From Paenibacillus sp. E222 (lineage in GTDB: Bacteria; Bacillota; Bacilli; Paenibacillales; Paenibacillaceae), in the NCBI RefSeq assembly GCF_013401555.1, contig NZ_CP058552.1, forward strand, positions 4,216,001-4,280,000: 64,000 bases of DNA. Direction: 5' to 3'. The notes beneath the pieces were generated by a model, which did no database searches, was not told the DNA's origin, and saw only the letters and a list, made by a program, of their open reading frames with translations. Below, piece after piece: positions 5,312-50,683 of this stretch (position 1 is the stretch's first letter; each line of letters starts with the position of its first letter). The position numbers and the translations under genes are program-made.

Positions 5312-7660
5312 ATGAAGACACTGGTTATTGCGGAAAAGCCCGACATGGGCCGAACCATTGCCGCCGTCATAGAACCAAGAGCCAAGAACAATCGCAATTA
5401 TTTGGAAGGTGAGCATTACATTATCACCTGGGCGATTGGCCATCTATTGGGACTTGCTGAACCGGATGCCTATGATTCAAAGTACAAGCGCTGGAATATC
5501 GGCGATCTGCCGATCATTCCGGATCAGTTCAAGATTGTACCCAACCCCAGAACGAAAGATCAACTGAAAATGATCGGAGAACTTGCGAAAAGAGCCTCGG
5601 CCATCGTTAATGCTTGTGATGCAGGGCGAGAGGGACAGTATATTTTTGCCTTAATTCAACAGCAGTTGAAGCTGCCTCAGCCTGTCAAACGTCTCTGGAT
5701 ATCGGATCTGACCGCAGAGAGTATTAAACGTGGTTTTGACGGTTTGAAAGACGCCTCGGAATTTGAGAATTTGACCCATGCTGCCCGGGCTCGTAGTGAA
5801 GCGGATTGGTTGATTGGCATGAATGCGTCCCGGGCTTTCACTACACGACATAATGCCTTGCTCTCTGTAGGCCGGGTGCAGACCCCGGTACTGGCCTTGA
5901 TCTATGATCGGGAAATGGAGATTGAAGCGTTCCAGTCCCAGACCTTTTATGAAGTAGCCGCATGGTTTCGTCAGGAAGGAGTGGAGTACAGGGGATTACG
6001 TCAAGGAGACAAGCTGACCGACCCCGCCGTGGCTGAATCGATTGCGACCAGTGTGAAGGGGAAGAAGGGACAGATTACCAAGTACGAAGCAAAACAGACC
6101 AAGGAGTATCCATACCGGTTGTATGATCTGACCCTTTTGCAGCGTGAAGCAAATGCCAAGTATGGATATGGGGCGAAGAAAACGTTGGATATTGCACAGG
6201 CGCTTTATGAGAAACATAAGGTGATCTCTTATCCACGGACAAATTCAAACTACGTTACGGAACAGAATATTGAAGGGATGCACAAAACGCTGAATTTGCT
6301 TAAAAACGGACCTTATAGTGAGCTGGCGCAAGGAGCGAAACCTGAACTTGTTCATAAAGGAAACAAAGGTGTATGTAACCCGTCCAGAGTTGAGGATCAC
6401 CATGCGATCCTGCCTACATTGAAACGACCGGGTACGTTATCCAAGGATGAGCAGAATATCTATGATCTGATCGTAAGACGTTTCTTATCCCATTTCTATC
6501 CGCCAGCAGAGTACAAGCAGCATACCGTGCTCACTGACGTTGAGAAGCACCAGTTCAAGACCTCTGTGAAAGAACTGCTGTCACTGGGGTGGAAGGTGGT
6601 ACTGGGATCTTCAGATCAGGAGCAGACAGGCAAGAAAAAAACAAAGAAAAATAGCAACGAAGAAGAGGAAGCAGAGGAATGGACGGATAAGGCTTTTGCC
6701 GTTCAACCTGAGTTGCCTGTTCAATGTACCAAAAGTGAATTCAAGGAGAAGGCGACCCAGCCTCCCAAAAGTTACACTGAGGGAACGTTGCTGAAAGCAA
6801 TGGAGAGTGCAGGGAAACAGATCGAGAATGAAGAGCTGCGTGATGCGATGAAAGACAGTGGACTGGGTACACCTGCGACACGTGCGGCAACGATAGAACG
6901 ACTTAAAAACGTGGGTTACATTACGATGCAGGGTAAAAAGATGCAACTGACGTTGAAGGGCCGGACAGCCATTGAATTGATCCGCAAGGCAGGCGTAGAT
7001 CTGTTAACCTCGCCTGAAATGACAGGTCAGTGGGAAAGAAGATTGTATCAAATTTCCAAAGGTGAAGCGGGCCAGGACAAGTTTATGGAGAACGTCAAGA
7101 AATTTACGATGTCCATTATTGATAAAGTACGTGTGCAGGCACCGGCACCAGCGGATGCTTTTGGTGAAGATACACGTGGAGGACGGGGGAAAGGCAAGGG
7201 AGCCAAAACCCAGAAAACCAGCAACAGAACAACTTCCACCAAGACATCAGGTACTGGCTCAAGTACCCGTGCAGGTTCGAAGACTTCACGTCAAACGTCG
7301 GAAACGTCATCCAGAACTGGCAGTGTCGCGAACGCGACGGCACAAACTCGATCTTCGACTTCCAGTCAACCGGGCGTTCGTGAAACGCTGGCATCTTGTC
7401 CATCACCGGGTTGCACCGGTCAGATTATTGAAGGCAAGAAAGGTTATGGCTGTACACGCTTTAAGGAAGGCTGCGGGTTTGTCATTTGGAAAGAGTACGT
7501 CGGCAAAAAAATCACCAGTACGATGTTGAAAGCGTTGATTGAAAAGGGGAGTACTCAGGTACTGGCTTTTAAACGAAAAGACGGAAGTACGGTGAAGGCT
7601 CGTATTATTTTGCAGGATAAGGCAACAGGCAAACTATCTGCGGAAAAGCAGGATGCATAA
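5312..7660 (+). CDS. topB: DNA topoisomerase III
   Basis: Type IA topoisomerase that passes single strands to decatenate and resolve recombination intermediates. The Toprim domain is at the N-terminus, with catalytic Glu near residue 7 (VIAEKPDMG) and DAGREG at 103-108. The active-site Tyr is about residue 307 in ISYPRTNSNYVTE. At 782 residues it is longer than B. subtilis TopB. The extra length is a Lys/Glu-rich insert near residue 435-455 and a Ser/Thr/Arg/Gly-rich linker at about 610-693. The linker leads to a C-terminal cysteine-containing domain (CPSPGC, GYGCTRF, GCGFVIWK). The start follows AAGGAGGAG; an out-of-frame ATG at 5304 is ignored. Confidence 0.95.
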   Translation: MKTLVIAEKPDMGRTIAAVIEPRAKNNRNYLEGEHYIITWAIGHLLGLAEPDAYDSKYKRWNIGDLPIIPDQFKIVPNPRTKDQLKMIGELAKRASAIVNACDAGREGQYIFALIQQQLKLPQPVKRLWISDLTAESIKRGFDGLKDASEFENLTHAARARSEADWLIGMNASRAFTTRHNALLSVGRVQTPVLALIYDREMEIEAFQSQTFYEVAAWFRQEGVEYRGLRQGDKLTDPAVAESIATSVKGKKGQITKYEAKQTKEYPYRLYDLTLLQREANAKYGYGAKKTLDIAQALYEKHKVISYPRTNSNYVTEQNIEGMHKTLNLLKNGPYSELAQGAKPELVHKGNKGVCNPSRVEDHHAILPTLKRPGTLSKDEQNIYDLIVRRFLSHFYPPAEYKQHTVLTDVEKHQFKTSVKELLSLGWKVVLGSSDQEQTGKKKTKKNSNEEEEAEEWTDKAFAVQPELPVQCTKSEFKEKATQPPKSYTEGTLLKAMESAGKQIENEELRDAMKDSGLGTPATRAATIERLKNVGYITMQGKKMQLTLKGRTAIELIRKAGVDLLTSPEMTGQWERRLYQISKGEAGQDKFMENVKKFTMSIIDKVRVQAPAPADAFGEDTRGGRGKGKGAKTQKTSNRTTSTKTSGTGSSTRAGSKTSRQTSETSSRTGSVANATAQTRSSTSSQPGVRETLASCPSPGCTGQIIEGKKGYGCTRFKEGCGFVIWKEYVGKKITSTMLKALIEKGSTQVLAFKRKDGSTVKARIILQDKATGKLSAEKQDA

Positions 7661-35320: not shown

Positions 35321-36427
35321 CTACATCCCATCATCTGTGCGACGTTCAATGGCTTCAGACATCGTTTTATCCGTGAGGTGCGCGTAAATTTCGGTTGTTT
35401 CCGTAGAAGCGTGTCCAAGCTGTTCCTTCGTTTTATAGATATCATTTTGCAAATAATAGTCTGTGGCAAAAGAATGGCGCAATTTATGAACAGTCAGATA
35501 CGGCTTGCCGAATTGTTTGGCGTACTTCATGATCATAGCCTGTATGGCCCGTTTGGTCATCCGACTTCCTTCTGAATCTCCATTGCGAAGAGCGATAAAC
35601 AGCCCTTTTTCCCGTTTGGGTGTACGGTAACGTGATTGGCGCAGATTGATATAAGTTGCGAGTTCATCCTTGGCTTGTTCTCTAAAATACACGGGCGTCT
35701 TAAACGTCTCATCATTATTACCTTTGCGATATACATACAGCAGCTTATTGTTGAGATCCAGATCATCCACGTTCAGGTTCACCACTTCAGATACACGCAA
35801 ACCCGAATTCAGAATGAGACTGGCGATACAGGCATCTCGTTCTTTGTTTAGCTCATGTGAGTAAATTGCCTGTTTGTTCTTTTCCATATCTACGGCATAT
35901 CCTTCAAGGATGTATCCGATAAATTCCAGTAACTCTTCTTCCTCCAGAAGTTTACCCTTTAGTTTGGCTGCTGTATCTTTGGGTTTATGGGTGCGTTTGA
36001 TCTCAATCTTCGCCATAATGTTTCGTTTCAGCAGGGGGTAGAAATCTTCATCTTCTGCAATCTGACTCAAATAATGAAAGAGCGAACGAAGGGAAGAAAG
36101 CTTGCGGGATACCGTGATTCTGGAGTTGGCTCCTTCACGCTTGGTGGCCAGAAATAATCGATAAGATGTTACTGATTCCATTCGAAGGACTTCCAGCTCA
36201 GTCAATGTAACTTCCTTATTGGAGCTTGCCTCGGATAATCCTTCCGCACGCAACCAGCCAAAGAAAGCTTCGTAATCCCTTAAATATTCAAGCAGCGTAG
36301 AAGGAGATAAGTCGGGTAATTTATAGTCAATGAATTGCTGAACGAACCACGGCATGGAAGGCAGTTTGTCATCCAGCTTGCGTCGGTCGATCTCTTTTTG
36401 CACATTGGTCAAGTTCGGCACCCCCAT
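35321..36427 (-). CDS. xerS: Tyrosine recombinase, XerS-like
   Basis: 368 residues, longer than XerC/XerD and with the architecture of the single-protein XerS recombinases of streptococci and some bacilli. The N-terminal SAM-like domain contains MPWFVQQFIDYKL and TLLEYLRDYEAFFGWL. Catalytic residues are in order: Arg in SGLRVSE, Lys in YRKGN, HKLRH, GHAS and the nucleophile Tyr near 348 in EIYAHLTD. XerS resolves chromosome dimers alone at difSL, though a mobile-element integrase is not excluded. The ATG at 36427 has no visible ribosome binding site. An inverted repeat lies just upstream of the start. Confidence 0.85.
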   Translation of the reverse strand: MGVPNLTNVQKEIDRRKLDDKLPSMPWFVQQFIDYKLPDLSPSTLLEYLRDYEAFFGWLRAEGLSEASSNKEVTLTELEVLRMESVTSYRLFLATKREGANSRITVSRKLSSLRSLFHYLSQIAEDEDFYPLLKRNIMAKIEIKRTHKPKDTAAKLKGKLLEEEELLEFIGYILEGYAVDMEKNKQAIYSHELNKERDACIASLILNSGLRVSEVVNLNVDDLDLNNKLLYVYRKGNNDETFKTPVYFREQAKDELATYINLRQSRYRTPKREKGLFIALRNGDSEGSRMTKRAIQAMIMKYAKQFGKPYLTVHKLRHSFATDYYLQNDIYKTKEQLGHASTETTEIYAHLTDKTMSEAIERRTDDGM

Positions 36428-38385: not shown

Positions 38386-38573
38386 GTAAGATTAATTTAC
38401 GCTCCCCAGTTCATACCTGCATCCCTACTACACCATCCCACCAACTCGTTATAACGAACTGCCTTATCCTCGGCTTCATGTCAACACTGATTTGGAATTA
38501 ATAGTGCAAGATTTAGAGGTTAAATGAGATGGCCGAAATAAAATGTAAAACCAATCTACGGATAAGCAGAAAG

Positions 38574-38612
38574 AAATCCCTATGCGGGGCTGTGCGCCCC
38601 GCGTAGGGATTT
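38574..38612 (-). terminator. Terminator of the APH-family gene
   Basis: Stem of 17 pairs (38574-38590 with 38596-38612, one G-U) containing GCGGGGC/GCCCCGC, at the 3' side of the minus-strand gene. Confidence 0.88.
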
Positions 38613-38627
38613 GGTAGGGTCATATGC

Positions 38628-39506
38628 TTAGAGCGATGTATAGTCACGAATAATGAAATCTATGACACGCTTTCCCCAATTCGAGGTTTCCGATCCTTGT
38701 TCATTCCAATCGTAGGAGATGAGTGCTTTCCACAAAGCCCAACCACGGGCACGATCAACCGTATCTTGGTCAACATTCATGCAGTTTAAGAATATATTAC
38801 GACTTACATCATCAAAAAAGTTCCATGCCATTACAAGATCACTTGAAGGATCGCCCACGCCCATAGTTCCAAAATCAATGACTCCGCATAGTCGTCCATC
38901 TTGCACGAGCAGATTGCCTACTGCAACATCACCATGGAGCCATAACGGGGACGCCTGATAATTCGTTGCCAGCGCAAGCTCCCATATTTCAGTGATGAGC
39001 TTTGAATCGTATTGGCCGGATACCTTTTCAATGACGGTCCTTGTATCTGTATCGTAGACCGATAAGTTTCCGCCGCGATGAAAATTTTGAATGCCTGCGG
39101 GTATACCGTAACTAGCATCAATGGCTTGGAGTTCCCTTAGAAATGTAGCGAGGTCTTCGGCAAATACGCTGAGATCGAGTACGTTAGTATGCGAGACGGT
39201 CTCGCCTGCGATCCATTGGTTGATTGACCAGGGAAGGGGATATTCGTCCGAGGGCTCACCTTTGGCAATGGGAGCTGGAATGGGCAAGGACAGTTGAGGT
39301 TGGAAAACTGGAAGCCACTTCAGTTCTTTTTCTACAGCAGAGGCGTAACGTTCGTGACTCGGTAAACGAATCGTCATTTCGTCTCCCAATCGATAGGTGC
39401 GGTTATCGTGCCCGCTTTTTTCTACAGGTGTTATCGTTAAACCCTTCCACTTCGGAAATTGACTATCGACTAATTGACGAACCAGTTCATTCGTAATTTC
39501 AATCAT
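38628..39506 (-). CDS. APH-family phosphotransferase (aminoglycoside phosphotransferase fold)
   Basis: 292 residues of the protein-kinase-like APH family. The Brenner motif is LWLHGDVAVGNLLV (catalytic Asp and Asn) and the metal motif GVIDFGTMGVGDPSSDL. The N-lobe (about 1-100) ends at WSINQWIAGETV. Many chromosomal members phosphorylate antibiotics, homoserine or other small alcohols; the substrate is not readable. ATG start behind GAGGCGAG. It is divergent from the ACP/ATP-grasp cluster whose promoter lies about 200 bases away, so a self-protection role against the cluster product is possible but unproven. Confidence 0.85.
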   Translation of the reverse strand: MIEITNELVRQLVDSQFPKWKGLTITPVEKSGHDNRTYRLGDEMTIRLPSHERYASAVEKELKWLPVFQPQLSLPIPAPIAKGEPSDEYPLPWSINQWIAGETVSHTNVLDLSVFAEDLATFLRELQAIDASYGIPAGIQNFHRGGNLSVYDTDTRTVIEKVSGQYDSKLITEIWELALATNYQASPLWLHGDVAVGNLLVQDGRLCGVIDFGTMGVGDPSSDLVMAWNFFDDVSRNIFLNCMNVDQDTVDRARGWALWKALISYDWNEQGSETSNWGKRVIDFIIRDYTSL

Positions 39507-39633
39507 GTTCTCGCCTCATTTTCTATTAAATGGGTGGCTTTAAACGCTAGTACATAAATTTTAACAATTTGTCTTGATCTTATCAAAGGGAGAAAATCGT
39601 CCAAAACAAAATGAGGAAGTTCGACCCTGTGAG

Positions 39634-39655
39634 GCCGCTAAAATAGCGGTTTTTT
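39634..39655 (+). terminator. Orphan terminator-like hairpin
   Basis: CCGCTA (39635-39640), loop AAA, TAGCGG (39644-39649) and six T. No plus-strand gene ends before it; it may insulate the cluster promoter from transcription antisense to the APH gene. Confidence 0.6.
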
Positions 39656-39704
39656 AGTGGCTAGAAGCCTTGTTGGTGAGGGCGAAATCACAGGTTTTTA
39701 TCCC

Positions 39705-39733
39705 TTGACATAAAATGTCATTATAAAGATAAT
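39705..39733 (+). promoter_or_regulatory. Promoter with palindromic operator for the ACP/ATP-grasp cluster
   Basis: TTGACA (39705-39710), a 17-base spacer and GATAAT (39728-39733) make a near-consensus sigma-A promoter. TGACAT-AAA-ATGTCA (39706-39720) is a perfect inverted repeat covering the -35 hexamer and part of the spacer, the position expected for a repressor. No regulator gene lies in the cluster. Confidence 0.8.
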
Positions 39734-39855
39734 AATTGTAACTTTGGAAGAGGGAGGAGAAATCAACACCAAGCTCAGGTTTGATTTGAATGGTATGTAA
39801 GCGTAATAATTTCGGTTGTACCCTCACACAATGATCACTTTAAAGGAGTGTAGTC

Positions 39856-40131
39856 ATGTACGATAAAATCGTAGATATTTTGTGCGCTATCAAAGAAGAC
39901 CAACCGGAACTACGCCAATCCCTGTCCCCAGCAACGGATCTGAATAACGATATTGGTCTCGATTCTCTGCAAATGATCCAGTTTATGCTCAAAGTCGAGG
40001 ATCAATTGAACGTAATTATTGACTATGACGAATTCGATTATGAACATCTTCAGTCGATCGACACATTTATAACCTTTCTGAAAAGCTGCCAGTCGCAAGA
40101 GCAATTATTGTACGAAGATGTCCAGAATTGA
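39856..40131 (+). CDS. Acyl carrier protein
   Basis: 91 residues with the phosphopantetheine attachment motif DIGLDSLQMI (Ser37), an acidic four-helix carrier-protein pattern and a short variable tail. The sequence differs from a housekeeping fatty-acid AcpP, and no fab genes are near. It heads a biosynthetic operon and overlaps the ATP-grasp gene by 14 bases, so that ligase probably loads it. I infer that an amino acid is tethered to it as in butirosin (BtrI). The ATG lies behind AAAGGAG and about 120 bases from the promoter -10. Confidence 0.88.
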   Translation: MYDKIVDILCAIKEDQPELRQSLSPATDLNNDIGLDSLQMIQFMLKVEDQLNVIIDYDEFDYEHLQSIDTFITFLKSCQSQEQLLYEDVQN

Positions 40132-41509
40132 GGCCGCGGTGATTCCAAGAATTGTTATGGGCACGTTTGACCCTGAAACGCGATGGAGGGATCCGGACTT
40201 AGCCAAGTTACCTGCTATGCCTGACAAGGACAGGGAATCCATTGTCTTATGTATGGACGAGCTGTTGTTTCCATTTTGCGGGCCAGACGATATCCTCTAC
40301 ACCCGCTGCAAAATCGATCAAAAGCTGTACGAATATCTAAACGGGTTAGGTTTTTCCTTTCGCAGCCGTTATCACTTTGATTTGAACGATGAGAAGAGGA
40401 CCCTGCCCGAACCGGACATTTTCAAGCAGTGCATGTTCAGTCTTGCTTCAGACAATCAACAGCGTGAAGAGATCTTGACCCACAACGAAAAACAGCTCTC
40501 TCCTTATGCCATTACGGCTGATACGGAGGAGTACCTGCGTGCCGAAGGATCGTTGGGTTCTTTGCCCGACCTTGAGACGGTTAAACGTGTAAATTCCAAA
40601 TTCTACTCTAACCGACTGGTGAACAGAATCGGAGAGAAGTGTTATGGCACGGAAGTGAACAGTGTAGTAGAAGTGCAGGCTGTCGGAAATACGCTGCTGA
40701 AGCGAGGGGCGTATTTGCTGAAAGATCCATTCGGTGTTTCCGGCAAGGGCAATATGCTCATTGAAAATGAAGCCATGCAGCGAAGGATAGCAGAGCATCT
40801 GGACAAGCAGGAGAGAAGAGGATTGCGCTCGCAATTCCTGCTGGAACCACTGCTGAGAAAAGAGATTGATTTCAGCTCACACTGGTTCATTCGTAAGAGC
40901 GGGGAGAGAGATTTCATTTCCGTTCAGCGAATGATAAATCAGCAGCAGAATTACGGCGGTTCTATTAGAGCAGATGAGACTTTGCTTCTTCTGCTGGAGA
41001 GCGCGGGTTATTTTGATACGATGGAAAAGGCACTTCGGGTATTATTCGAGGATGGATACCATGGCTTCGTGTGCTTCGACTCCATGATTCTGGAGGATGG
41101 CGATATCGTACCCATTGTTGAGATTAACGCCCGCAAGTCCATGGGTCTTATTAATGCTTATCTCGATAAAGGCTGGAAAACGTACGGCCATAGCGGCCTT
41201 CTTACCTTCCTCTCTCTCGGTCTACCTGAAGGCTTCACGTTCGGAAAGTTGCTCGACGCCTTGCATGTATCCGGTCTTCTATTCAAAGGGCAAGGTGAGT
41301 ACGGAATTATGCCTATTTCATCTAACACCGTAATGGTGAATGATATTCTGACCTCACGGCGTATAGCCGAGGGAATCCAGAGTCATCGTGGTATGCCGAA
41401 GGGACGATTGTATATCTCGGTGGTGGGCCGTGATGACGAACATCGCAATGAACTGATCGTAAGTCTGAGACAGGTACTCGCTGACTTGTCTATTAAAGTG
41501 TACAACTAA
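40118..41509 (+). CDS. ATP-grasp ligase (BtrJ-like role inferred)
   Basis: 463 residues. The ATP-grasp fold is seen in LLKDPFGVSGKGNMLI (about 200-215, ATP-binding Lys and Gly loop), an acidic segment QFLLEPLLRKEIDFS and the metal-binding VPIVEINARKSMGL (332-343). The N-terminal 150 residues look like the pre-ATP-grasp domain of peptide or amino-acid ligases. Enzymes of this fold join a carboxylate, as acyl phosphate, to an amine or thiol. Its overlap with the ACP gene suggests loading of an amino acid onto the carrier, the reaction of BtrJ in butirosin synthesis, or ligation of one from it. I cannot determine the substrate. Confidence 0.75.
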   Translation: MSRIEAAVIPRIVMGTFDPETRWRDPDLAKLPAMPDKDRESIVLCMDELLFPFCGPDDILYTRCKIDQKLYEYLNGLGFSFRSRYHFDLNDEKRTLPEPDIFKQCMFSLASDNQQREEILTHNEKQLSPYAITADTEEYLRAEGSLGSLPDLETVKRVNSKFYSNRLVNRIGEKCYGTEVNSVVEVQAVGNTLLKRGAYLLKDPFGVSGKGNMLIENEAMQRRIAEHLDKQERRGLRSQFLLEPLLRKEIDFSSHWFIRKSGERDFISVQRMINQQQNYGGSIRADETLLLLLESAGYFDTMEKALRVLFEDGYHGFVCFDSMILEDGDIVPIVEINARKSMGLINAYLDKGWKTYGHSGLLTFLSLGLPEGFTFGKLLDALHVSGLLFKGQGEYGIMPISSNTVMVNDILTSRRIAEGIQSHRGMPKGRLYISVVGRDDEHRNELIVSLRQVLADLSIKVYN

Positions 41510-41531
41510 TTCTGGAATGCGGAGGCTGCGC

Positions 41532-42638
41532 ATGAATTCATCTTCGGTTACCCTGCTTGCGTCGGGCAATTCGCTTGGTGCATACATTCCGGCTATGCAT
41601 CTGAACACTTACCTGCAAGATAGAGGTGTTCGAACGGACGTTTACGTTCTGGAGAACCTGTATCATGAAGGAATCAGAGGCAAGATTAATTCCACCAAAA
41701 AAGCATTTCATGCCGATTTCTCTGTTGCCCTTATGGGGCATAAACTGGCCAAGCCTGTAGACTCTTCCCTGAACGAAGCGGAAGTCCAGTTGCTGTTGGA
41801 TGGATGGATACGTGATGGGGTATCTCATTTTGCTGTGTTTACCGGTTTTTGGCTCCCGGTCCTGGAGAGGTACAAAGCCATTGCACCTTCGTCTCTGGAT
41901 ATTCAACTGATTCGTTTGGATGTGTGCGATACGCCCTCGTTTAAAGTACACAGGTCCTTGTATCCGGACTACGATAATGTCTGGCTTTACGAGCCTTCAA
42001 GGTTGTATCCAGATTATTATATTGCCTCCAATGAAAAGGAAGTCCTGCCTTATGCACAGCGAGACGGACGCATTCTGGTCCATGGCGGCGGCTGGGGCAT
42101 AGGAACGTACGCGTCAACGATTGCAGAGCTTCGTCAATGTAATTACTTGCTGGATGTGATCGTCTATGATCCTTCCGAGGTCGAGGAAGACGATGGTAGC
42201 ACACGTTACTTCGGAACTGAGGCTTCATGGAACCCGTGGAGTCGGGATGCCCAAGGGCGGCATTCGTTTCCGCCAATGAACCAATATGTACGTGAAGATG
42301 GCATTCTTCGGGCAATTCCGCTCCGTGATTACTCTGCTTACACGCATCTGATGCGCAATTGTGCTGCCATTATCAGCAAGCCAGGAGGAGCGACGCTTAA
42401 CGATTCGTTGTCCTGCGGAATACCTTTTGTCATGTTAGAGCCGTTTGGCGACCATGAGCTTCAGAATTCAAACTATTGGGAATCCTGTGGTTTCGGTATT
42501 CGATTCGCGGAATGGAAAGCCCTGGATTACTCGGAACAACATCTCGAAGAAATGTACGGACATTTGCTGGAGCAGCGATCAAAAATCAATCATTTGGGGA
42601 GGAAAACGCATGCAGCCGAAAACAGCAGTTACGTTTGA
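41532..42638 (+). CDS. GT-B-type glycosyltransferase-like protein
   Basis: 368 residues starting at the ATG at 41532, six bases after GCGGAGG; an in-frame ATG at 41517 precedes that site. The N-terminus LLASGNSLGAYIPAMHLNTYL resembles the first Rossmann loop of UGT/MurG enzymes. The C-terminal segment SKPGGATLNDSLSCGIPFVM (about 283-302) followed by FGDHELQNSNYW resembles their nucleotide-sugar-binding motif. It probably transfers a sugar, though the middle part is unfamiliar. It shares 29 bases with the radical SAM gene, indicating coupled translation. Confidence 0.65.
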   Translation: MNSSSVTLLASGNSLGAYIPAMHLNTYLQDRGVRTDVYVLENLYHEGIRGKINSTKKAFHADFSVALMGHKLAKPVDSSLNEAEVQLLLDGWIRDGVSHFAVFTGFWLPVLERYKAIAPSSLDIQLIRLDVCDTPSFKVHRSLYPDYDNVWLYEPSRLYPDYYIASNEKEVLPYAQRDGRILVHGGGWGIGTYASTIAELRQCNYLLDVIVYDPSEVEEDDGSTRYFGTEASWNPWSRDAQGRHSFPPMNQYVREDGILRAIPLRDYSAYTHLMRNCAAIISKPGGATLNDSLSCGIPFVMLEPFGDHELQNSNYWESCGFGIRFAEWKALDYSEQHLEEMYGHLLEQRSKINHLGRKTHAAENSSYV

Positions 42639-43785
42639 TAAGCTGACATTCCAAAATATGAAAAGAACCCTCGTTCCGCTCGCCGAAACGGGAAGGAAAC
42701 GCCGGGAGGACCCGACATATGCCGCACCCGTGCCTTATGAGATCGGAATCAAGCTTAATAACGGCTGTAACCTTCGCTGCAAACATTGCTTTGAATGGAA
42801 TCCAGATGGCTTCCATCACGGCTTTGCCAGTGAAGTGAAAAGAGACGAAATCGAGATTCCCGTCGTGGAGAAACTGCTCGCCGAAACGAGAGAACGCAAA
42901 TCACGTGTGTTCCTGTGGGGCGGAGAACCGCTATTCTACTCCAAGTTCGATGAACTGGCAGAACTGCTGGCTAAGGAAGACCGGCATACAACCATTTGTA
43001 CAAACGCAATTCTCATTGAACAAAAGCTGGATTCCATTTTGAAAATGTCTAAGAATTTAGTCATGCTGGTCAGCCTGGAAGGATTCGAGAAGGAGAATGA
43101 CGCGATTCGGGGCAAAGGCACGTTCAAAAAAGTGATTCACGCCATACAGCTGCTGTTGGATCTGCAAAAGCAGGGCTTGTACAAAGGCAAAGTGTCCGTA
43201 GCTCTGACCGTAAATGACCAGATGGTTGATCAGTTGTATAGCTTGATGGAATTCTTTGAAGAGTTGGGTGTTGATTCCGTGTACTTCTGCTTCCCATGGT
43301 ACATCCCTTCCGATACGGCGGAAAAAATGGACACCTACTTTGATGCGCACTTTCCGCACCTGGCCTCCCGCTTTGCGAGCGACCACAAGAACAGCTGGCA
43401 CTCTTTCACGTTTCACATCTCACCGGATCGTTACGACACATTAATCGAGGAATTTAAACGAGTTAATTCACGAGTGTGGAATGTACGTATCCGCTATCAG
43501 CCTGCGCTGGAGCCCGAAGAGGTAGAAGATTTTATTCGGGGTAGCGAAAAGCCGGCCATGAATCGGACCAAGTGTTTTTCGATCTCCAATCGGATGGACG
43601 TGATGCCAGACGGTAAGGTCAATCCATGCAAATTTTTTCCGGAATTCAGTGTCGGTAATTTATATGAAGAAAGTGTGACCGATATTTTCCACGGTGAGGA
43701 TCTGCGAAAACAACGCGAGGTTCTGGCCTGCGGCCTGACACCGATTTGCTCCAAATGCGTGCTTTTGTATAACAACGGAGTTTAA
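42610..43785 (+). CDS. Radical SAM enzyme with SPASM-type C-terminus
   Basis: 391 residues from the ATG at 42610 (behind GGGGAGG); an open frame extends 55 codons further upstream without a site. The radical SAM cluster motif is CNLRCKHC (Cys53, 57 and 60), followed by FLWGGEPLFY, the GGE SAM-binding motif. The C-terminal region has CFSISNRMDVMPDGKVNPC (Cys322, Cys340) and CGLTPICSKC (Cys374, 380 and 383), typical of SPASM/twitch domains that bind auxiliary clusters. SPASM enzymes modify peptides or carrier-bound and sugar substrates. With no precursor peptide nearby, an ACP-bound amino acid or a glycoside is the likely substrate (inference). Confidence 0.9.
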   Translation: MQPKTAVTFDKLTFQNMKRTLVPLAETGRKRREDPTYAAPVPYEIGIKLNNGCNLRCKHCFEWNPDGFHHGFASEVKRDEIEIPVVEKLLAETRERKSRVFLWGGEPLFYSKFDELAELLAKEDRHTTICTNAILIEQKLDSILKMSKNLVMLVSLEGFEKENDAIRGKGTFKKVIHAIQLLLDLQKQGLYKGKVSVALTVNDQMVDQLYSLMEFFEELGVDSVYFCFPWYIPSDTAEKMDTYFDAHFPHLASRFASDHKNSWHSFTFHISPDRYDTLIEEFKRVNSRVWNVRIRYQPALEPEEVEDFIRGSEKPAMNRTKCFSISNRMDVMPDGKVNPCKFFPEFSVGNLYEESVTDIFHGEDLRKQREVLACGLTPICSKCVLLYNNGV

Positions 43786-43844
43786 TCGCTTTAACTTTAA
43801 GCCGCCAATATGGAAAAACATGCAATCATTCAGGAGGAGCGGGG

Positions 43845-44828
43845 ATGGACTTTATCCGTGTACGAGAACTGCACAAATCGTTCGTATATTACCGGAAAGA
43901 AGCAGGACTCAAACATTCACTGAAAAACCTGTTTGCTCGCAAATCACTTGTGAAGGAAGCGGTTAAATCCGTTTCCTTTGATATCGGCCCCGGAGAGTGC
44001 GTTGGATTTCTGGGACCGAACGGAGCAGGTAAAACCACAACGCTCAAAATGTTGTCGGGCATTCTATATCCGACAAGCGGAGAAGCCGACGTACTGGGAT
44101 ATGTGCCTTGGGAGCGAAAGAACGAGTTCAAACGGCTGTTCTCCATTGTAATGGGTCAGAAAAATCAACTTTGGTGGGACCTTCCCGCCAGCGATTCGAT
44201 TTATTTGAACAAATGTATATATGACGTCGAGGATGATGTCTATCGTCGAATTCTTGCCGAACTGTCAGAGATGCTTGATGTGCAAGATCTGCTGGATGTA
44301 CAGGTTCGCAGACTGTCCTTGGGTGAACGTATGAAAATGGAGCTAATCGCTGCTCTGATCCACCGACCGAAGCTGCTGTATCTCGACGAGCCGACGATCG
44401 GCCTGGATTTCCCCTCTCAGAAGAGGGTGCGGGAATTTCTGAAATACTATAATGAGCAGTTTGGCGCCACGATCCTGCTAACGAGCCACTACATGAAGGA
44501 CGTGGAGGACCTGTGCAAGCGAACAATTATCATTAATGAAGGAACTCTTCTGTATGACGGAGATCTTCATAAGATTAACGATCTGTTTGGCGAGCACAAA
44601 ATTGTAAAGCTGCAGTTCTCGGAGCCGGTTGCCGAGCAGCGGCTGGCCAAATTCGGAAAAATAATCAGCGCAGACGACTACAGTGTTGTTCTGGAGCTGC
44701 CCAAGCACCGACTAAAAGAAGTGTCACGTGCTATGCTCGATTCGTTTCCGATTGTTGACTGGACGATTGAGGACGTGCCGATCGAGGAGAGTATCTCCAT
44801 GCTCTACCAAAAGGAATCCGTCGGATGA
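43845..44828 (+). CDS. ABC-2 exporter ATPase
   Basis: 327 residues. Walker A is GPNGAGKT (57-64), the signature is the variant LSLGERMKMEL, Walker B is LLYLDEPTIGLD and the H-loop LTSHYMKDVEDL. A 55-residue domain follows the ATPase core, as in drug/polysaccharide-type ABC-2 exporters. It pairs with the two permeases downstream; the first overlaps by 4 bases. A strong AGGAGGAG site re-initiates translation 59 bases after the radical SAM gene. Probably exports the cluster product. Confidence 0.92.
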   Translation: MDFIRVRELHKSFVYYRKEAGLKHSLKNLFARKSLVKEAVKSVSFDIGPGECVGFLGPNGAGKTTTLKMLSGILYPTSGEADVLGYVPWERKNEFKRLFSIVMGQKNQLWWDLPASDSIYLNKCIYDVEDDVYRRILAELSEMLDVQDLLDVQVRRLSLGERMKMELIAALIHRPKLLYLDEPTIGLDFPSQKRVREFLKYYNEQFGATILLTSHYMKDVEDLCKRTIIINEGTLLYDGDLHKINDLFGEHKIVKLQFSEPVAEQRLAKFGKIISADDYSVVLELPKHRLKEVSRAMLDSFPIVDWTIEDVPIEESISMLYQKESVG

Positions 44829-45634
44829 GTGGACGCAGATTGTATACGGCTGTATTTTCGATGGGTGTGCAGCAATCGATGGAATACCGATTTCACTTCT
44901 TTCTCGGTCTTCTCGGCTCCGCGTTTCCGATTCTTGTTCAGTATTTTATATGGACAGCGGTGTACCAGCACTCCGGGGAAACGGCATTATTCTCGTATTC
45001 ATATCATCAGATCATTTTGTATACGATCTTGGCGGGTTTGGTCTCCAAGCTGATCGCTACCCAGTTCGAGCACCAGATTGTCGATGATATCAAGAACGGC
45101 GGTCTCAATAAGTATTTGATCAAACCGGTCAGCTACTTCGGATATCGGCTGGTATCCTTTTTCGGACAGAAGGCGATCTATTACGGTGTTACAGCGGTGC
45201 TTCTTGTCGGGATTATCTGGATCTCATCTGCGGGTGGTGTGCTTGAGTTCCAGGTCATACGGCTGATCTTGTTCGTCGTTACGTTGTCGGGGGCGCTTTT
45301 GCTCAATTTCTTGATCTCCTACTGTATCTGTGCAAGTGCTTTTTATCTAAATGAAATCTCTTATTTTTTCGTTATTACGAGTCTGCTTGTGAATATTCTG
45401 AGCGGAGGTATGTTCCCATTAGAGATTTTCGGGGATTCGATCGTGGAGGCACTTCAGTACACGCCGTTTCCATATACCATTTATTTTCCAGTCAATGTGC
45501 TCAGCGGCAAAACGGAGGTGGCGGCGATGTATCAAGGATTGCTCATCCAGTTCGGCTGGATACTCCTGTTCTTCTGGCTATCCCGTCTAACGTGGCGCAT
45601 ATCCATGAAGAAATATTCAGCGGTTGGGGGGTAG
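44825..45634 (+). CDS. ABC-2 exporter permease 1 (ABC2_membrane_6/DUF990 type)
   Basis: 269 residues, six predicted membrane spans. The opening SMGVQQSMEYRFHFFLGLLG and the segment DIKNGGLNKYLIKPVSYFGYRL are hallmarks of the DUF990 permease group, which works as heterodimers. ATGA overlap with the ATPase gene. Partner of the next gene. Confidence 0.85.
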   Translation: MSGRRLYTAVFSMGVQQSMEYRFHFFLGLLGSAFPILVQYFIWTAVYQHSGETALFSYSYHQIILYTILAGLVSKLIATQFEHQIVDDIKNGGLNKYLIKPVSYFGYRLVSFFGQKAIYYGVTAVLLVGIIWISSAGGVLEFQVIRLILFVVTLSGALLLNFLISYCICASAFYLNEISYFFVITSLLVNILSGGMFPLEIFGDSIVEALQYTPFPYTIYFPVNVLSGKTEVAAMYQGLLIQFGWILLFFWLSRLTWRISMKKYSAVGG

Positions 45635-45646
45635 CGTAGATCCCAT

Positions 45647-46450
45647 ATGTTTAGAGCCATGAGAAAATACGCACATTTGTATGGCATGTTCATTAAAAAT
45701 TGTCTCATTGCCCAGATGGAGTTTCGAGGCAATTTCATGATGAGCCTGCTCGTGGAATCCGTCTACCTGCTCGCCAAACTGTTATATGTACTCGTTGTGT
45801 TCCGTACCGATCTTCACGTCGATGGCATACCACCGGAAGGGCTGCTTCTATTTATAGGCATGCACACCGTGGTGACAGGCATGTATGTCGGGCTGTTTTT
45901 TACCAATTTTACGAAAATTCCGGAATATATTAAGGACGGCTCGCTTGATCTAATGCTAACGAAGCCGGTTTCTCTTCAATTTATGGCTTCTTTGCGTTAT
46001 GTCGATCTGGCGCTGCCAATCCCCGATATTTTAGTTGGTTTCGTCATGATTGGCATTGGCTGGCATGCGATGGACATCCCCCTGACGTTTCTCCAGCTAG
46101 TCGGGTTTATGCTGCTGTTATTCGTCTCCGTTATCATCACATACTGTCTAATGATTATCCCTGCATTGCTGTCATTTCGGTTCGTTCAGACGGGCTCTGC
46201 ATCGGAGATCGCTCATTCCGCTTGGGACGCCAACAATTTTCCAATGGCGATATACCCAACTTGGGTCCGGCGGATCGGTACCTTTGTCATTCCGCTGTTC
46301 CTGATTACCAACTTCGGACCGCTGTTCCTGCTAGGACAGCTCAGCTGGCTCTATACAGGACTGGCGCTGGTCGCTTCGCTGATACTCTTCACAGTTATAC
46401 GATTGCTCTGGAAACAGGCTGTGAAGGGATATAGCAGTGCAAGCAGTTAA
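45647..46450 (+). CDS. ABC-2 exporter permease 2 (ABC2_membrane_6/DUF990 type)
   Basis: 267 residues, six predicted spans. It shows the same family pattern as permease 1 (QMEFRGNFMMSLLVESVYLLAKL; YIKDGSLDLMLTKPVSLQFMASLRY) but is clearly a distinct sequence, so the transporter is a heterodimer. It starts 12 bases after permease 1. Confidence 0.85.
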   Translation: MFRAMRKYAHLYGMFIKNCLIAQMEFRGNFMMSLLVESVYLLAKLLYVLVVFRTDLHVDGIPPEGLLLFIGMHTVVTGMYVGLFFTNFTKIPEYIKDGSLDLMLTKPVSLQFMASLRYVDLALPIPDILVGFVMIGIGWHAMDIPLTFLQLVGFMLLLFVSVIITYCLMIIPALLSFRFVQTGSASEIAHSAWDANNFPMAIYPTWVRRIGTFVIPLFLITNFGPLFLLGQLSWLYTGLALVASLILFTVIRLLWKQAVKGYSSASS

Positions 46451-46461
46451 GGGGGAGAAAA

Positions 46462-47505
46462 ATGAATGCTCTTCAGCTGCCCGTGTTAAATCCGCCGCTT
46501 AAAGGATTTCTGCGGTGGGCTTACACGCTTTCGATTACCAGTGCACATGAGGAAACGATTCCTTGGTATTACAGCAATTTCATTCAGTTGTCCTGCAAGA
46601 AAACCTTTCTGGAGGATGGCAGACAGTTTTATATCGATTTTTTTCGGGGCCAACCCAACGAACTGAATTTCAATAATCCATTTCTACTCACATGCTCTGT
46701 GAATTACACAATTCTGGAGCATTTGGCGCTGGACGCCTGGCCCCAATTTTTCACCGATCAGATTCGCAACGGCTATTATTGTGTCGTGTTTTTGGACGAA
46801 GCGAAGCTAACGCCAGCGGCGGCCTATCAGCAGGAACCGTTTCCGCATCATCTTTTTCTGTACGGTTTTGATTGGGACAATCGTTTTTTTGATGCTTCCA
46901 TGTTCGACCATACGGGAGTTTACCGCAATGTACAGATTCCGTTCAAGGAGTTCCTGGATGCTATCCATTCCATGAGACATCTGCTCAGAGAGGGACTCAC
47001 CGCGGATCATCACACTTATTTTTACAAATACGAGCCGCATTCTCCTTATCCTTTCGATAGAATCGTAGCGCTCGACCAACTGCATGATTACCTGAACGGA
47101 GAGACTCATCTGAATCGTATTAATTACAATCCTGATAACGAACAGGCTTTTGGAATTAACGTCTACGACTATTTGCAAATGTACTATGATGCGGTAGAGA
47201 GCAACGATCCTCGTCTCGGTGACCGTAACGATGTGAGGCATCTTCATGTGCTCTGGGAGCACAAAAAAATGATGAGTGAACGGATTGCCTACTTGATCGA
47301 GGAGGGGATGATCCCTTACGACGAAGAACTTGTGAACGGTTATCAGGATATAACCACAAGGGCAATGAAGCTAAGAGATCAATACATCCGTCATGAAATT
47401 CGTGAAGACAAGGCTGTGTTTGCGAGGATAAAACTCCGGTTGGAACAATTCCGCAAGGAAGAGCCGGTTCTGCTGCAAAGACTGATTTCATGGCTGGAAA
47501 AGTAA
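46462..47505 (+). CDS. Unrecognised cluster protein with papain/BtrH-like traits
   Basis: 347 residues, soluble, no signal peptide. The first 170 residues contain LTCSVNYTI (Cys78) and HHLFLYGFDWDNRFFDASMF (His129/His130, Asp137, Asp144). That His-then-Asp arrangement resembles the C39/BtrH N-terminal papain-like fold. BtrH moves an acyl group from an ACP onto an aminoglycoside, which would fit an operon that has an ACP and an ATP-grasp ligase. The C-terminal half is helical and charged, with no recognised motif. The match is by eye and weak. It begins 11 bases after permease 2 behind GGGGGAG, and is the last gene of the operon. Confidence 0.5.
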   Translation: MNALQLPVLNPPLKGFLRWAYTLSITSAHEETIPWYYSNFIQLSCKKTFLEDGRQFYIDFFRGQPNELNFNNPFLLTCSVNYTILEHLALDAWPQFFTDQIRNGYYCVVFLDEAKLTPAAAYQQEPFPHHLFLYGFDWDNRFFDASMFDHTGVYRNVQIPFKEFLDAIHSMRHLLREGLTADHHTYFYKYEPHSPYPFDRIVALDQLHDYLNGETHLNRINYNPDNEQAFGINVYDYLQMYYDAVESNDPRLGDRNDVRHLHVLWEHKKMMSERIAYLIEEGMIPYDEELVNGYQDITTRAMKLRDQYIRHEIREDKAVFARIKLRLEQFRKEEPVLLQRLISWLEK

Positions 47506-47548
47506 ATAAAGAAGGCCATTCCTCTGGGAGGAACAGCCTTCTTTATTT
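47504..47548. terminator. Bidirectional terminator closing the ACP cluster
   Basis: A perfect 13-bp stem (47504-47516 with 47536-47548) encloses an inner TTCCTC/GAGGAA hairpin and overlaps the cluster's last stop codon. It lies between convergent transcripts. Confidence 0.92.
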
Positions 47549-47592
47549 ATATTCATAGGTTATACGTTAGCCCTATTATAATTCTTTATCAC

Positions 47593-48555
47593 TTATTCAA
47601 ATTTGAAATCATCATCCGTCAGAGGTTCTACATTCAGAGTACGAATATACCCGTTGCCTTTTTTAGAGAAAAAGTCATGCTGTTTGGTATGTGTACTGAT
47701 TCCATTTAATACAATCGGGTTGACTTCCTCGTCTTCAAATAATGGCTCAAAACCGAGGTTCATCATCGCTTTGTTAGCGTTATAACGAAGGAATGCTTCG
47801 ACTTCTTCGGTCAAATGAATAGGGGTATATAATTCCTTCGTATATTTCAACTCATTTTGATGAAGAAGCTGTACTAGATCAACCAAACCTTGATACACAT
47901 CGTTCCGCTGCGTTTCATCAAAGCTTGCGTATATTTCCTGGGCCAGCACGCCCACATATACACCGTGAATACTTTCATCCCTTAGAATCAGATCAATGAT
48001 CTCACCACTGCATGTGAGTTTGCCTTGTCCAGCTAAATAGAGTGGATAGAAAAATCCGCTGTAAAACAAATAACTTTCCAAAAGAACGGAGGCCGCCATA
48101 GCCATATACAGATCTTTTGAAGTTTCAATATTCATGTAATACTGACGTATAATCGTCGCTTTGGTTTGCAGATATGGATTTTCTTCCACCCATTTAAATA
48201 CACTGTCAATTTCTTCGGTTGATGCCAACGTGGTAAAAATACTGCTGTATGATTTCGCATGAATTTGTTCCATCATCGCCATAAAACTAAGTACAGCTTT
48301 GCGTTGCAGTCCATCGACATGCTCCATAATCTGCGGCATACCTACACCGCCCTGGATTGTATCCAGAAGGGTTAAGCCTCCCAAAACTTTCATATAAGCG
48401 TCTTTTTCTACATCACTGAGCATGCCCCAGGTCATTTTATCATCGGATAAAGGAATCTCGTCATCGGTCCAAAATTGCATAATATTCTGATTCCAGAACA
48501 TCAGGGTGAAATCATCATCCGCCCGATTCCAGTTCACAGCTTGAATTGCCGGCAT
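47593..48555 (-). CDS. nrdF: Class Ib ribonucleotide reductase beta subunit NrdF
   Basis: 320 residues, ferritin-like radical-generating subunit. Metal ligands are seen in MMEQIHAKSYSSIF and ILRDESIHGVYVG, with the first Asp/Glu set in the WGMLSDVEKDAY region. The radical Tyr lies in the KSYSS segment. The C-terminal tail (LTDDDFKFE) should dock onto NrdE. Together with NrdE and NrdI it makes deoxynucleoside diphosphates under aerobic conditions, with a dimanganese cofactor in this class. It is the third gene of the nrdI-nrdE-nrdF operon, 43 bases after nrdE. Confidence 0.95.
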   Translation of the reverse strand: MPAIQAVNWNRADDDFTLMFWNQNIMQFWTDDEIPLSDDKMTWGMLSDVEKDAYMKVLGGLTLLDTIQGGVGMPQIMEHVDGLQRKAVLSFMAMMEQIHAKSYSSIFTTLASTEEIDSVFKWVEENPYLQTKATIIRQYYMNIETSKDLYMAMAASVLLESYLFYSGFFYPLYLAGQGKLTCSGEIIDLILRDESIHGVYVGVLAQEIYASFDETQRNDVYQGLVDLVQLLHQNELKYTKELYTPIHLTEEVEAFLRYNANKAMMNLGFEPLFEDEEVNPIVLNGISTHTKQHDFFSKKGNGYIRTLNVEPLTDDDFKFE

Positions 48556-48598
48556 GGTATATCAAACTCCAATCGTAATACCCTAAAGGGAAATTTGT

Positions 48599-50683
48599 TT
48601 ATATTGAACAAGCAATGCATTCTTCCATCGTCAGCTTGTTGGTTCTTGTGTAATACAAAGATTTCAACCCTTTATGAGCAGCATACAGATAGCAGCGAGC
48701 CAACTCTCGCGTGGTTACATCACTGTTTACATGCAGAATGGTTGAGATGCCTTGGTCCACATGCGGCTGAATCTCCGCAATCAAATCAATCACCTTGAAT
48801 TGATCCATTTGATACGCTGATTTGTAATAGAAGACGTTATCCTTTTGCAAATAGGGCATTGGATAATACGTGGTTGAATTGGCATAGGTCCGTGTCTCAA
48901 TCTGTTCTACGATCGGCATGACACTGGATGTTGCGTTTTGGATATAAGAGATGCTGGCCGTTGGAGCAATAGCCATGCGATAGGCATGGTAGAGACCATT
49001 TTTCATCACTTTAGACTTAAGCTGGTTCCAATCCTCGGGAGACGGAACAGCAATGCCGGTAAACAATTCTTGTACTTTCGATGTGGTGGGACGGTAATCC
49101 GTAGTCACATAACGATCAAAATATACGCCAGTCGCATAATCCGACTGCTCAAATCCATAGAACCGTTGACCCGTTTGAACTGCAAACTCCATACTTTTCT
49201 CCAGAGAATGATAATTCATGGTCATAAAGAAGGTACGTACAAAATCCTTGGCCTCCGAGCTTTCATAAGCAATCCTGTTTTTGGCTAAGTAACCGTGCAG
49301 GTTCATGGCTCCCAAGCCAACGGAATGCATCTCGGAATTGGCTTTAGCCACACCGGGAGCATTGGCAACATGCGTCATGTCGCTGACGGAGGTCAGTGCA
49401 ATCATGCCCTCATGCACGGATTCCTTGATCTTGCCACTCTCCATAACATTAACAATATTGAGGGAGGCCAGGTTGCAGCTGATATCTTTGCGGATAATAT
49501 CCGGTTGACCATAGTCTGTAATTTCAGAAGTCTCCTGGAGCTGGAAGATCTCTGTGCAGAGGTTGGACATTTTGACTTGTCCTACGTTTTTCAAGGCATG
49601 TGCTTGATTGGCATTGGTTTTATTAATGATGTAGGGATAGCCGGATTCAAGTTGAGTCATCGCTATTTTGGTCAGCATATCCCGTGCGCTGAGCGATTTT
49701 TTCTTCTTCACCCGGTCGTCAGCCAGCAAGGTATCATACATTACGTCCAGATCCATATCATCCAAATGTGTTCCATACGCCTTATAAACACTATAAGGTG
49801 CGAAGAGATACAGAGGCTCATTATCTTGAGCCAGCTTATAGAAACGATTAGGAACAATAAGTCCGATAGAGAGAGTTTTCAGCCGGATTTTCTCATCCGC
49901 ATTGATTTTTTTGCTATCCAGCAGTTCCATAACGTCCCAACCGAAAATATTATAGTATGCTGCACCAGAACCTTTACGTTGACCCATCTGATCGGCGTAG
50001 GAGAAGCCGTCTTCCATCAGCTTGAGAACAGGCGTGATGCCTTTAGCAGCACCTTCAACTCCTTTAATGACTTCACCACGAGCACGCAACTTCGACAGAT
50101 TGACAGCAACGCCACCACCGATTTTGGATAACTGCATACACGTGTTTAGGACATAGTTTATGGAGTTCAGTGAATCATCCATTTCAAGCAGGAAGCAAGA
50201 AACCAGTTCACCGCGCCGACTTTTTCCCGCATTCAGGAAAGTGGGGGTTGCCGGTTGAATACGCTGCTCCATCATCGAACGGGACAGCAAACAAGCCGTA
50301 TCAAAGTGTCCACGACCCAGATGAAGTGCAGCGGCGGCTACCCGATCTGCATATTGCTCAAGGTATGTTTTGCGGTCATATGTTCTCAACGCATAATCAG
50401 TATAGAATTTGGACGCTGCCATATAGGAAGGAAAGGTATACTGATAGCCACGCGTAATTTCAAATACGGTTCTAACTTCGTCAGCTGTATAGGAAGCATA
50501 GAAATCCTCGTAATAATCATGATCAATCATGAATTTGACCTGATCATCAATGTTGGCAAATGCCATACTTTTATCTTTAATTTCTTTCATAAACTCCTCT
50601 ACAGCCTCTTTATCCTTATGTAACTGGAAGAAGCCATCAGAGTTGCGTTTTAGCAGCATGTTATTTAATTCAATATGACGCAA
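48599..50683 (-). CDS. nrdE: Class Ib ribonucleotide reductase alpha subunit NrdE
   Basis: 694 residues, catalytic subunit. Active-site elements include PATPTFLNAGKSRRGELVSCFLLEM, SCNLASLNIVN with an active-site Cys, and PTASISYIQNATSSVMP; the tail ends in CIACSI, the redox pair reduced by NrdH or thioredoxin. It lacks the long N-terminal ATP-cone of class Ia, as expected for NrdE. It starts with TTG at 50683 behind AGGAGGTGAG and overlaps nrdI by 14 bases. Confidence 0.95.
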   Translation of the reverse strand: MRHIELNNMLLKRNSDGFFQLHKDKEAVEEFMKEIKDKSMAFANIDDQVKFMIDHDYYEDFYASYTADEVRTVFEITRGYQYTFPSYMAASKFYTDYALRTYDRKTYLEQYADRVAAAALHLGRGHFDTACLLSRSMMEQRIQPATPTFLNAGKSRRGELVSCFLLEMDDSLNSINYVLNTCMQLSKIGGGVAVNLSKLRARGEVIKGVEGAAKGITPVLKLMEDGFSYADQMGQRKGSGAAYYNIFGWDVMELLDSKKINADEKIRLKTLSIGLIVPNRFYKLAQDNEPLYLFAPYSVYKAYGTHLDDMDLDVMYDTLLADDRVKKKKSLSARDMLTKIAMTQLESGYPYIINKTNANQAHALKNVGQVKMSNLCTEIFQLQETSEITDYGQPDIIRKDISCNLASLNIVNVMESGKIKESVHEGMIALTSVSDMTHVANAPGVAKANSEMHSVGLGAMNLHGYLAKNRIAYESSEAKDFVRTFFMTMNYHSLEKSMEFAVQTGQRFYGFEQSDYATGVYFDRYVTTDYRPTTSKVQELFTGIAVPSPEDWNQLKSKVMKNGLYHAYRMAIAPTASISYIQNATSSVMPIVEQIETRTYANSTTYYPMPYLQKDNVFYYKSAYQMDQFKVIDLIAEIQPHVDQGISTILHVNSDVTTRELARCYLYAAHKGLKSLYYTRTNKLTMEECIACSI

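Follow-up and report, generated by a model that had tools for sequence, protein, structure and literature searches.

Eight genes between one promoter and one terminator

The window analysed here is a stretch of 64,000 nucleotides (nt) from Paenibacillus sp. E222 (assembly GCF_013401555.1, contig NZ_CP058552.1, positions 4,216,001 to 4,280,000), whose genome is a single contig of 7.5 Mb. Eight co-directional open reading frames (ORFs) were read on its plus strand between positions 39705 and 47550, encoding a stand-alone acyl carrier protein (ACP), an ATP-grasp ligase, a glycosyltransferase-like protein, a radical S-adenosylmethionine (SAM) enzyme, an ATP-binding cassette (ABC) exporter and a last protein with the BtrH/CcbD/CtaG fold (Table 1). 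A first-pass annotation had described these genes as tightly packed or overlapping and as lying between a strong promoter and a strong terminator, and this layout was confirmed. Overlaps of 14, 29 and 4 nt were found between the ACP and ATP-grasp, the glycosyltransferase-like and radical SAM, and the ABC ATPase and first permease ORFs, respectively, and the largest intergenic gap within the operon is 59 nt. The promoter was the top of 14 consensus matches; shuffled sequences gave a mean of 17.5, so that the scan alone is not significant. Its two hexamers and their 17-nt spacing are kept, with a varying spacer sequence, in 27 of 27 upstream regions (26 related loci and the window), at -136 to -154 from the ACP gene or, in locus L008, at -38 from a truncated ACP remnant.

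Table 1. Features of the operon in the window.
Feature	Coordinates	Strand	Support or remark
Promoter TTGACA-N17-GATAAT	39705..39733	+	11/12 consensus bases; followed in most relatives by AATTGTAAC
Acyl carrier protein, 91 aa, Ser37 in DSL	39856..40131	+	PF00550, E 8.7e-8
ATP-grasp ligase, 463 aa	40118..41509	+	predicted peptide/amide-ligase type
GT-B (GT28/UGT-like) glycosyltransferase, 368 aa	41532..42638 (alternative start 41517)	+	weak profile match and conserved motif
Radical SAM enzyme with twitch-type C-terminal domain, 391 aa	42610..43785	+	PF04055, PF13186
ABC exporter ATPase	43845..44828	+	PF00005, E 9e-24
ABC-2 permease 1	44825..45634	+	PF06182, E 6e-21
ABC-2 permease 2	45647..46450	+	PF06182, E 2.5e-37
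BtrH/CcbD-fold protein without nucleophile Cys, 347 aa	46462..47505	+	
Intrinsic terminator, common to operon and convergent gene	47502..47550	+	-27.9 kcal/mol, z -5.85

An inverted repeat (TGACAT-AAA-ATGTCA) covers the -35 region at 39706-39720, and L028 carries TGACAG-TCC-CTGTCA in the same place; it is a possible operator. A search for a riboswitch in the leader (Rfam, 38500-48600, E up to 0.1) gave a sole match, RF00249, on the terminator hairpin and below the gathering score.

The carrier identity of the first protein held, since it scored 32.8 bits on PF00550 against a cut-off of 20.8; on NCBIfam ACP models, AsbD included, it scored below cut-off. It is a carrier protein as judged from its sequence profile. 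The overlapping gene encodes a ligase with the PreATP-grasp peptide-ligase fold over its whole length and with intact nucleotide and metal motifs, which supports the peptide/amide-ligase type. It differs from the peptide ligases 3WVQ (which we take to be PGM1), 8YND, BesA and SAOUHSC_02373 (presumably LdmS) in its low identity to them (13-17%) and in the overlap of its gene with that of the ACP. PF18604 was matched at E 1 or better in only 3 of 33 ATP-grasp relatives, and the open-licence literature search turned up no paper for PDB entry 8YND.

The gene annotated as UGT/MurG-like is present, with a GT-B match that is weak and below the Pfam cut-off. Its sole PDB profile match under E 0.01 was the processive diacylglycerol glucosyltransferase 9WDE (E 6.5e-7, confined to positions 276-359), and the NCBIfam model that scored best was diglucosyl diacylglycerol synthase (E 4e-7, well short of the cut-off); the family conserves KPG...S...P...LEP.G.HE..N. 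The following protein had been called a SPASM radical SAM enzyme. Radical SAM membership stood (PF04055, E 4e-21, with PF13186 at a SPASM-type C-terminus), whereas the two-cluster SPASM assignment did not: besides CX3CX2C at Cys53/57/60, only four Cys (322, 340, 380 and 383) are invariant in 19 of 19 sequences, and the auxiliary domain is therefore classed, from these residues, as twitch. The profile matched BtrN (4M7T) at E 4.3e-9. The exporter comprises, as annotated, one ABC ATPase and two different PF06182 permeases, which places it in the ABC-2 group. None of the eight genes is a nonribosomal peptide synthetase (NRPS) or polyketide synthase (PKS) by Pfam. A ribosomally synthesised and post-translationally modified peptide (RiPP) as product was set aside because the largest gap is 59 nt and the leader, in the upstream alignment, looks unlike coding sequence; ORFs shorter than 50 aa that lie within or span the genes fell outside this check.

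Recurrence of a four-gene core

A contig scan with the last protein as query returned 53 loci. Of these, 29 are close relatives at 59-95% identity (L003-L031), and the other 24 are distant, with at most 28%. ACP, ATP-grasp, glycosyltransferase and radical SAM genes adjoin the BtrH-like gene in 25 of the 29 close loci, and the ABC ATPase and both permeases are also present in 24, L015 being without them. Twelve of the 25 core-bearing loci carry an extra Zn-dehydrogenase and GH3 glycosidase just before the BtrH-like gene; eleven have the pair behind permease 2, and L015 has it behind the radical SAM gene. The best identities to GH3 and Zn-dehydrogenase at other places in the window genome were 50% and 32%; there is thus no close copy, and relocation of the pair was rejected.

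In a set of 75 Paenibacillus genomes, all but one of 48 radical SAM matches (47) have an ATP-grasp match on their own strand no more than 10 kb away, and counting from the ATP-grasp side likewise gives 47 of 48, these counts being made after 27 of 75 ATP-grasp rows, all below 190 bits, had been dropped. The radical SAM gene occurs in 43 of the 75 genomes, and 28 of the 48 ATP-grasp genes have a member of the BtrH-like family within 15 kb on the same strand. The ATP-grasp gene was found at E 1e-60 in 110 of 344 Paenibacillaceae genomes; four of 398 genomes in a phylum sample have it, one of them outside Paenibacillaceae, and the same four carry the radical SAM gene. These observations support the view that the cluster genes travel together, a point on which the first-pass annotation had made its reading depend.

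Cluster content was compared by tblastn in 30 loci, a set of 20 selected on ATP-grasp (L103-L122) and a further ten (L146-L155, with L149 selected on radical SAM), which are not independent, several being close kin and L151, L154 and L155 looking like L007, L026 and L015. All 30 contain the core four of ACP, ATP-grasp, glycosyltransferase and radical SAM, one member being present by construction; the ATP-grasp of L149 is divergent, and L103 has only the second ACP type within the stretch. The L148 cluster may be decaying, because its radical SAM (32%) and glycosyltransferase (26%) matches are poor and a permease is split. Its genome (G026) holds a second copy of a related cluster, L147, whose ATP-grasp gene is broken between two reading frames (rows 5739827 and 5740585). 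Of the 30 loci, 25 have the ATPase and both permeases; a window-type BtrH-like relative occurs in 15 and a Cys-containing BtrH_N protein in five.

Tailoring genes vary among the relatives: PIG-L deacetylase, Gfo/Idh/MocA oxidoreductase, NAD epimerase/dehydratase, methyltransferases, GH3, Zn-dehydrogenase, an adenosine monophosphate (AMP) ligase with a second ACP, and a second radical SAM. An Orn/DAP/Arg decarboxylase, dependent on pyridoxal phosphate (PLP), is present in L103, L104, L107 and L108, and some relatives have a toolkit like that of butirosin, in which the decarboxylase is joined by another ATP-grasp and by a BtrH_N protein that contains the Cys. Two Streptomyces plasmids scored 475-488 (radical SAM), 290-316 (ATP-grasp) and 323-340 bits (glycosyltransferase) on the family profiles, and both have an ACP. 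The annotated one, from Streptomyces sp. BB1-1-1 (L164:15061-31173), carries radical SAM, ACP, ATP-grasp and glycosyltransferase genes, three Gfo/Idh/MocA genes and a gene of the aminoglycoside phosphotransferase (APH) family; dTDP-glucose genes lie nearby on the opposite strand. A lone condensation domain occurs in this gene run alongside the Gfo/Idh/MocA genes, and together with the Cys-type BtrH_N relatives suggests that the pathway includes condensation. The core four recur in Paenibacillaceae, another Bacillota family and Streptomyces, hence in two phyla, and their recurrence in varied clusters points to an undescribed small-molecule family. No paper describing this cluster was found in the open-licence literature, which mostly leaves out subscription journals, judged by titles and the starts of abstracts.

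The window genome contains a second, diverged cluster of the family (L056, G000:C1, about 295,100-306,300) with an exporter of its own, an AMP ligase and two genes each for ACP and radical SAM, the AMP ligase and one ACP adjoining a BtrH-like gene. Petrobactin biosynthesis uses the AsbC/AsbD/AsbE trio; this paralogue resembles it in that AMP ligase and ACP, and the window operon in its sub-threshold AsbD score, but the operon, unlike petrobactin clusters, has no AMP ligase. Distant Cys-less BtrH proteins directly follow another radical SAM gene in L032:1182-11077, L033-L038, L043 and L051; ACP and PKS-like ketosynthase genes precede in L032, and one such chain itself carries a BtrH_N domain. 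At the flank of the window operon, an upstream APH gene (38628-39506, minus strand) was considered for self-resistance and rejected: among the loci compared, matches covering half of it were confined to L004, L005, L027 and L150, which are near kin; L003 and L007 end too close upstream to tell. A phage-integrase family gene (35321-36427, minus strand) lies a few kb upstream of the operon.

The last protein lacks the BtrH-type cysteine

The last protein had been read as C39/BtrH-like. The BtrH/CcbD/CtaG fold was recovered over most of the chain, at about 10% identity to CcbD, LmbD and CtaG, but no Pfam family was matched at E 1, the BtrH_N (PF14399) cut-off of 29.7 bits was not reached, and the catalytic Cys is missing. 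Nineteen of 41 relatives matched PF14399 at E 1 or better (best 1.9e-6), and the protein's profile gave one chance match only among solved structures (BplB, E 2.1). CcbD takes up the acyl group through a Cys, with its Asp114 and His131 in contact with the amino sugar (PMC12945683). The nucleophilic Cys is found where the first long helix begins, a place at which the last protein, unlike the condensing enzymes CcbD and LmbD and unlike CtaG, has none; its only Cys are at 45, 78 and 107. A Cys anywhere in residues 13-24 occurs in 9 of 109 alignment rows, in three different columns. His129 is kept in 108 of 109 rows, and Asp112 is also kept in the window protein. The missing Cys, the twitch auxiliary domain and the four-gene core recurring in two phyla are the new points of this work.

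Proposed pathway and its alternatives

Gene content, folds, co-travel, the promoter and the missing Cys are what the analysis shows; the substrates, the order of steps and the product are what we infer. The ATP-grasp enzyme would activate a carboxylate, probably of an amino acid, as an acyl phosphate and couple it either with the thiol of the ACP or with an amino acid already bound there; the glycosyltransferase would add a sugar from a nucleotide sugar; and the radical SAM enzyme would abstract hydrogen from a sugar or side-chain carbon, with a two-electron oxidation through its four-Cys auxiliary cluster, as in BtrN. The Cys-less BtrH-fold protein could then couple an amine with the acyl group on the carrier through direct aminolysis, His129/Asp112 serving as base, which would resemble an NRPS condensation domain and differ from the Cys ping-pong of CcbD, and the ABC transporter would export the product. 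We give an even chance to the proposition that the operon is one member of a widespread family of small biosynthetic clusters, with a core of ACP, ATP-grasp, GT-B and twitch radical SAM working by these steps. A broader formulation is more tentative, and somewhat doubtful as a whole: the core would define an undescribed class of carrier-protein-dependent aminoacyl-glycosides in two phyla, in which the condensing step would have at least three solutions (Cys-type BtrH, Cys-less BtrH by His-driven direct aminolysis, lone condensation domain) and the Cys-less type would have become separable from the core.

Several points weigh against the proposed pathway, whose substrates and product are, again, ones that we infer. 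Loading of the ACP by the ATP-grasp enzyme would follow from gene overlap and, by analogy, from the BtrJ precedent, and the family match of the putative glycosyltransferase is weak. Equivalence of His129/Asp112 with His131/Asp114 of CcbD is drawn from alignment ranges and not from a printed structural alignment. Cys45, Cys78 and Cys107 are common among close relatives (71, 64 and 67 of 109), which may use another Cys as nucleophile. Profiles of Cys-less and Cys-type BtrH proteins match weakly (probability 4%, E 0.01, alignment beginning after the N-terminus), and a link between them on this basis was rejected. The association of the BtrH-like gene with the core is also patchy. Neither BtrH type is present in 10 of the 30 core-bearing loci, among which L114 has a weak BtrH_N match and L118 a weak match on the opposite strand; in the genus, 60 of 88 matches to the wider BtrH-like family lie away from this ATP-grasp gene and 28 beside one; and in four of the 29 close loci (L008, L023, L024, L025) the gene persists without a neighbouring core. 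This patchiness is hard to square with an essential last step.

The core-less loci bear on another reading, in which the Cys-less protein does not condense, and protects from the product or performs carrier chemistry like that of AziU3, so that it can outlive the core; AziU3 acts in azinomycin biosynthesis, in carrier-linked chemistry leading to aziridine formation. L008 (positions 6260-7300, P. glacialis) is a decaying cluster in which pieces of ACP, ATP-grasp and glycosyltransferase genes remain behind the same promoter and the reading frames of dehydrogenase, GH3 and BtrH-like protein run uninterrupted from end to end. L023 retains only these last three genes, and L024 and L025 only the BtrH-like gene; the latter two form a clade (100/100) within the core-bearing tree, with dS 0.55 and dN 0.038. 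A search for the full-length ATP-grasp gene was negative for the L008, L024 and L025 genomes, and that of L023 gave one weak match of 84 bits. Absence of any related pathway from core-less genomes was nevertheless rejected for strain SC116 (L025), which holds a divergent cousin cluster elsewhere (L204:10020-18852) with ACP (51% identity), glycosyltransferase (42%), ATP-grasp of the second type (26%), radical SAM (59%) and ABC genes, the radical SAM genes being two in number. Because of this cluster the lone BtrH-like protein of SC116 may act in trans on it, and a non-condensing role seems rather unlikely.

A direct analogue of the butirosin side-chain pathway, with the radical SAM enzyme modifying an amino acid on the ACP and a Cys of the BtrH-like protein carrying it over to a glycoside, appears very improbable. 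Stand-alone ACP, ATP-grasp ligase, BtrH fold and twitch radical SAM all have counterparts in butirosin (BtrI, BtrJ, BtrH and BtrN), and some relatives share its decarboxylase and a Cys-type BtrH_N protein. The window operon departs from butirosin in lacking the BtrH Cys, in containing among its eight ORFs no PLP decarboxylase such as BtrK, the decarboxylating enzyme named in PMC2922099, and in including a GT-B protein and an ABC-2 exporter. Moreover, BtrN oxidises a free aminocyclitol and has chains of 269-270 aa against 391 aa here; because the radical SAM C-terminus resembles this aminocyclitol oxidiser, radical chemistry on an ACP-bound amino acid, as first proposed, is one option only. Of the butirosin-related pathway first envisaged, carrier, ligase, BtrH fold and co-travel stood, whereas Cys transfer of the CcbD type did not, and the BtrH-like gene is no part of the invariant core. 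We place the operon near, and do not claim it for, the butirosin system. Production and export of an aminoacylated glycolipid or other envelope glycoside, in place of a secreted metabolite, would agree with the diacylglycerol-related glycosyltransferase matches and with the ABC-2 exporter; the patchy occurrence in the genus and the highly variable tailoring genes are more usual for specialised metabolites, and this reading is improbable.

If the proposed pathway is correct, a common Paenibacillus locus without NRPS, PKS or RiPP precursor would encode a family of sugar-amino-acid products with species-specific tailoring, and its conserved promoter would offer a simple handle for expression. The Cys-less BtrH fold poses the question of whether a papain-like amide synthase can work without cysteine or whether the fold has been put to another use.

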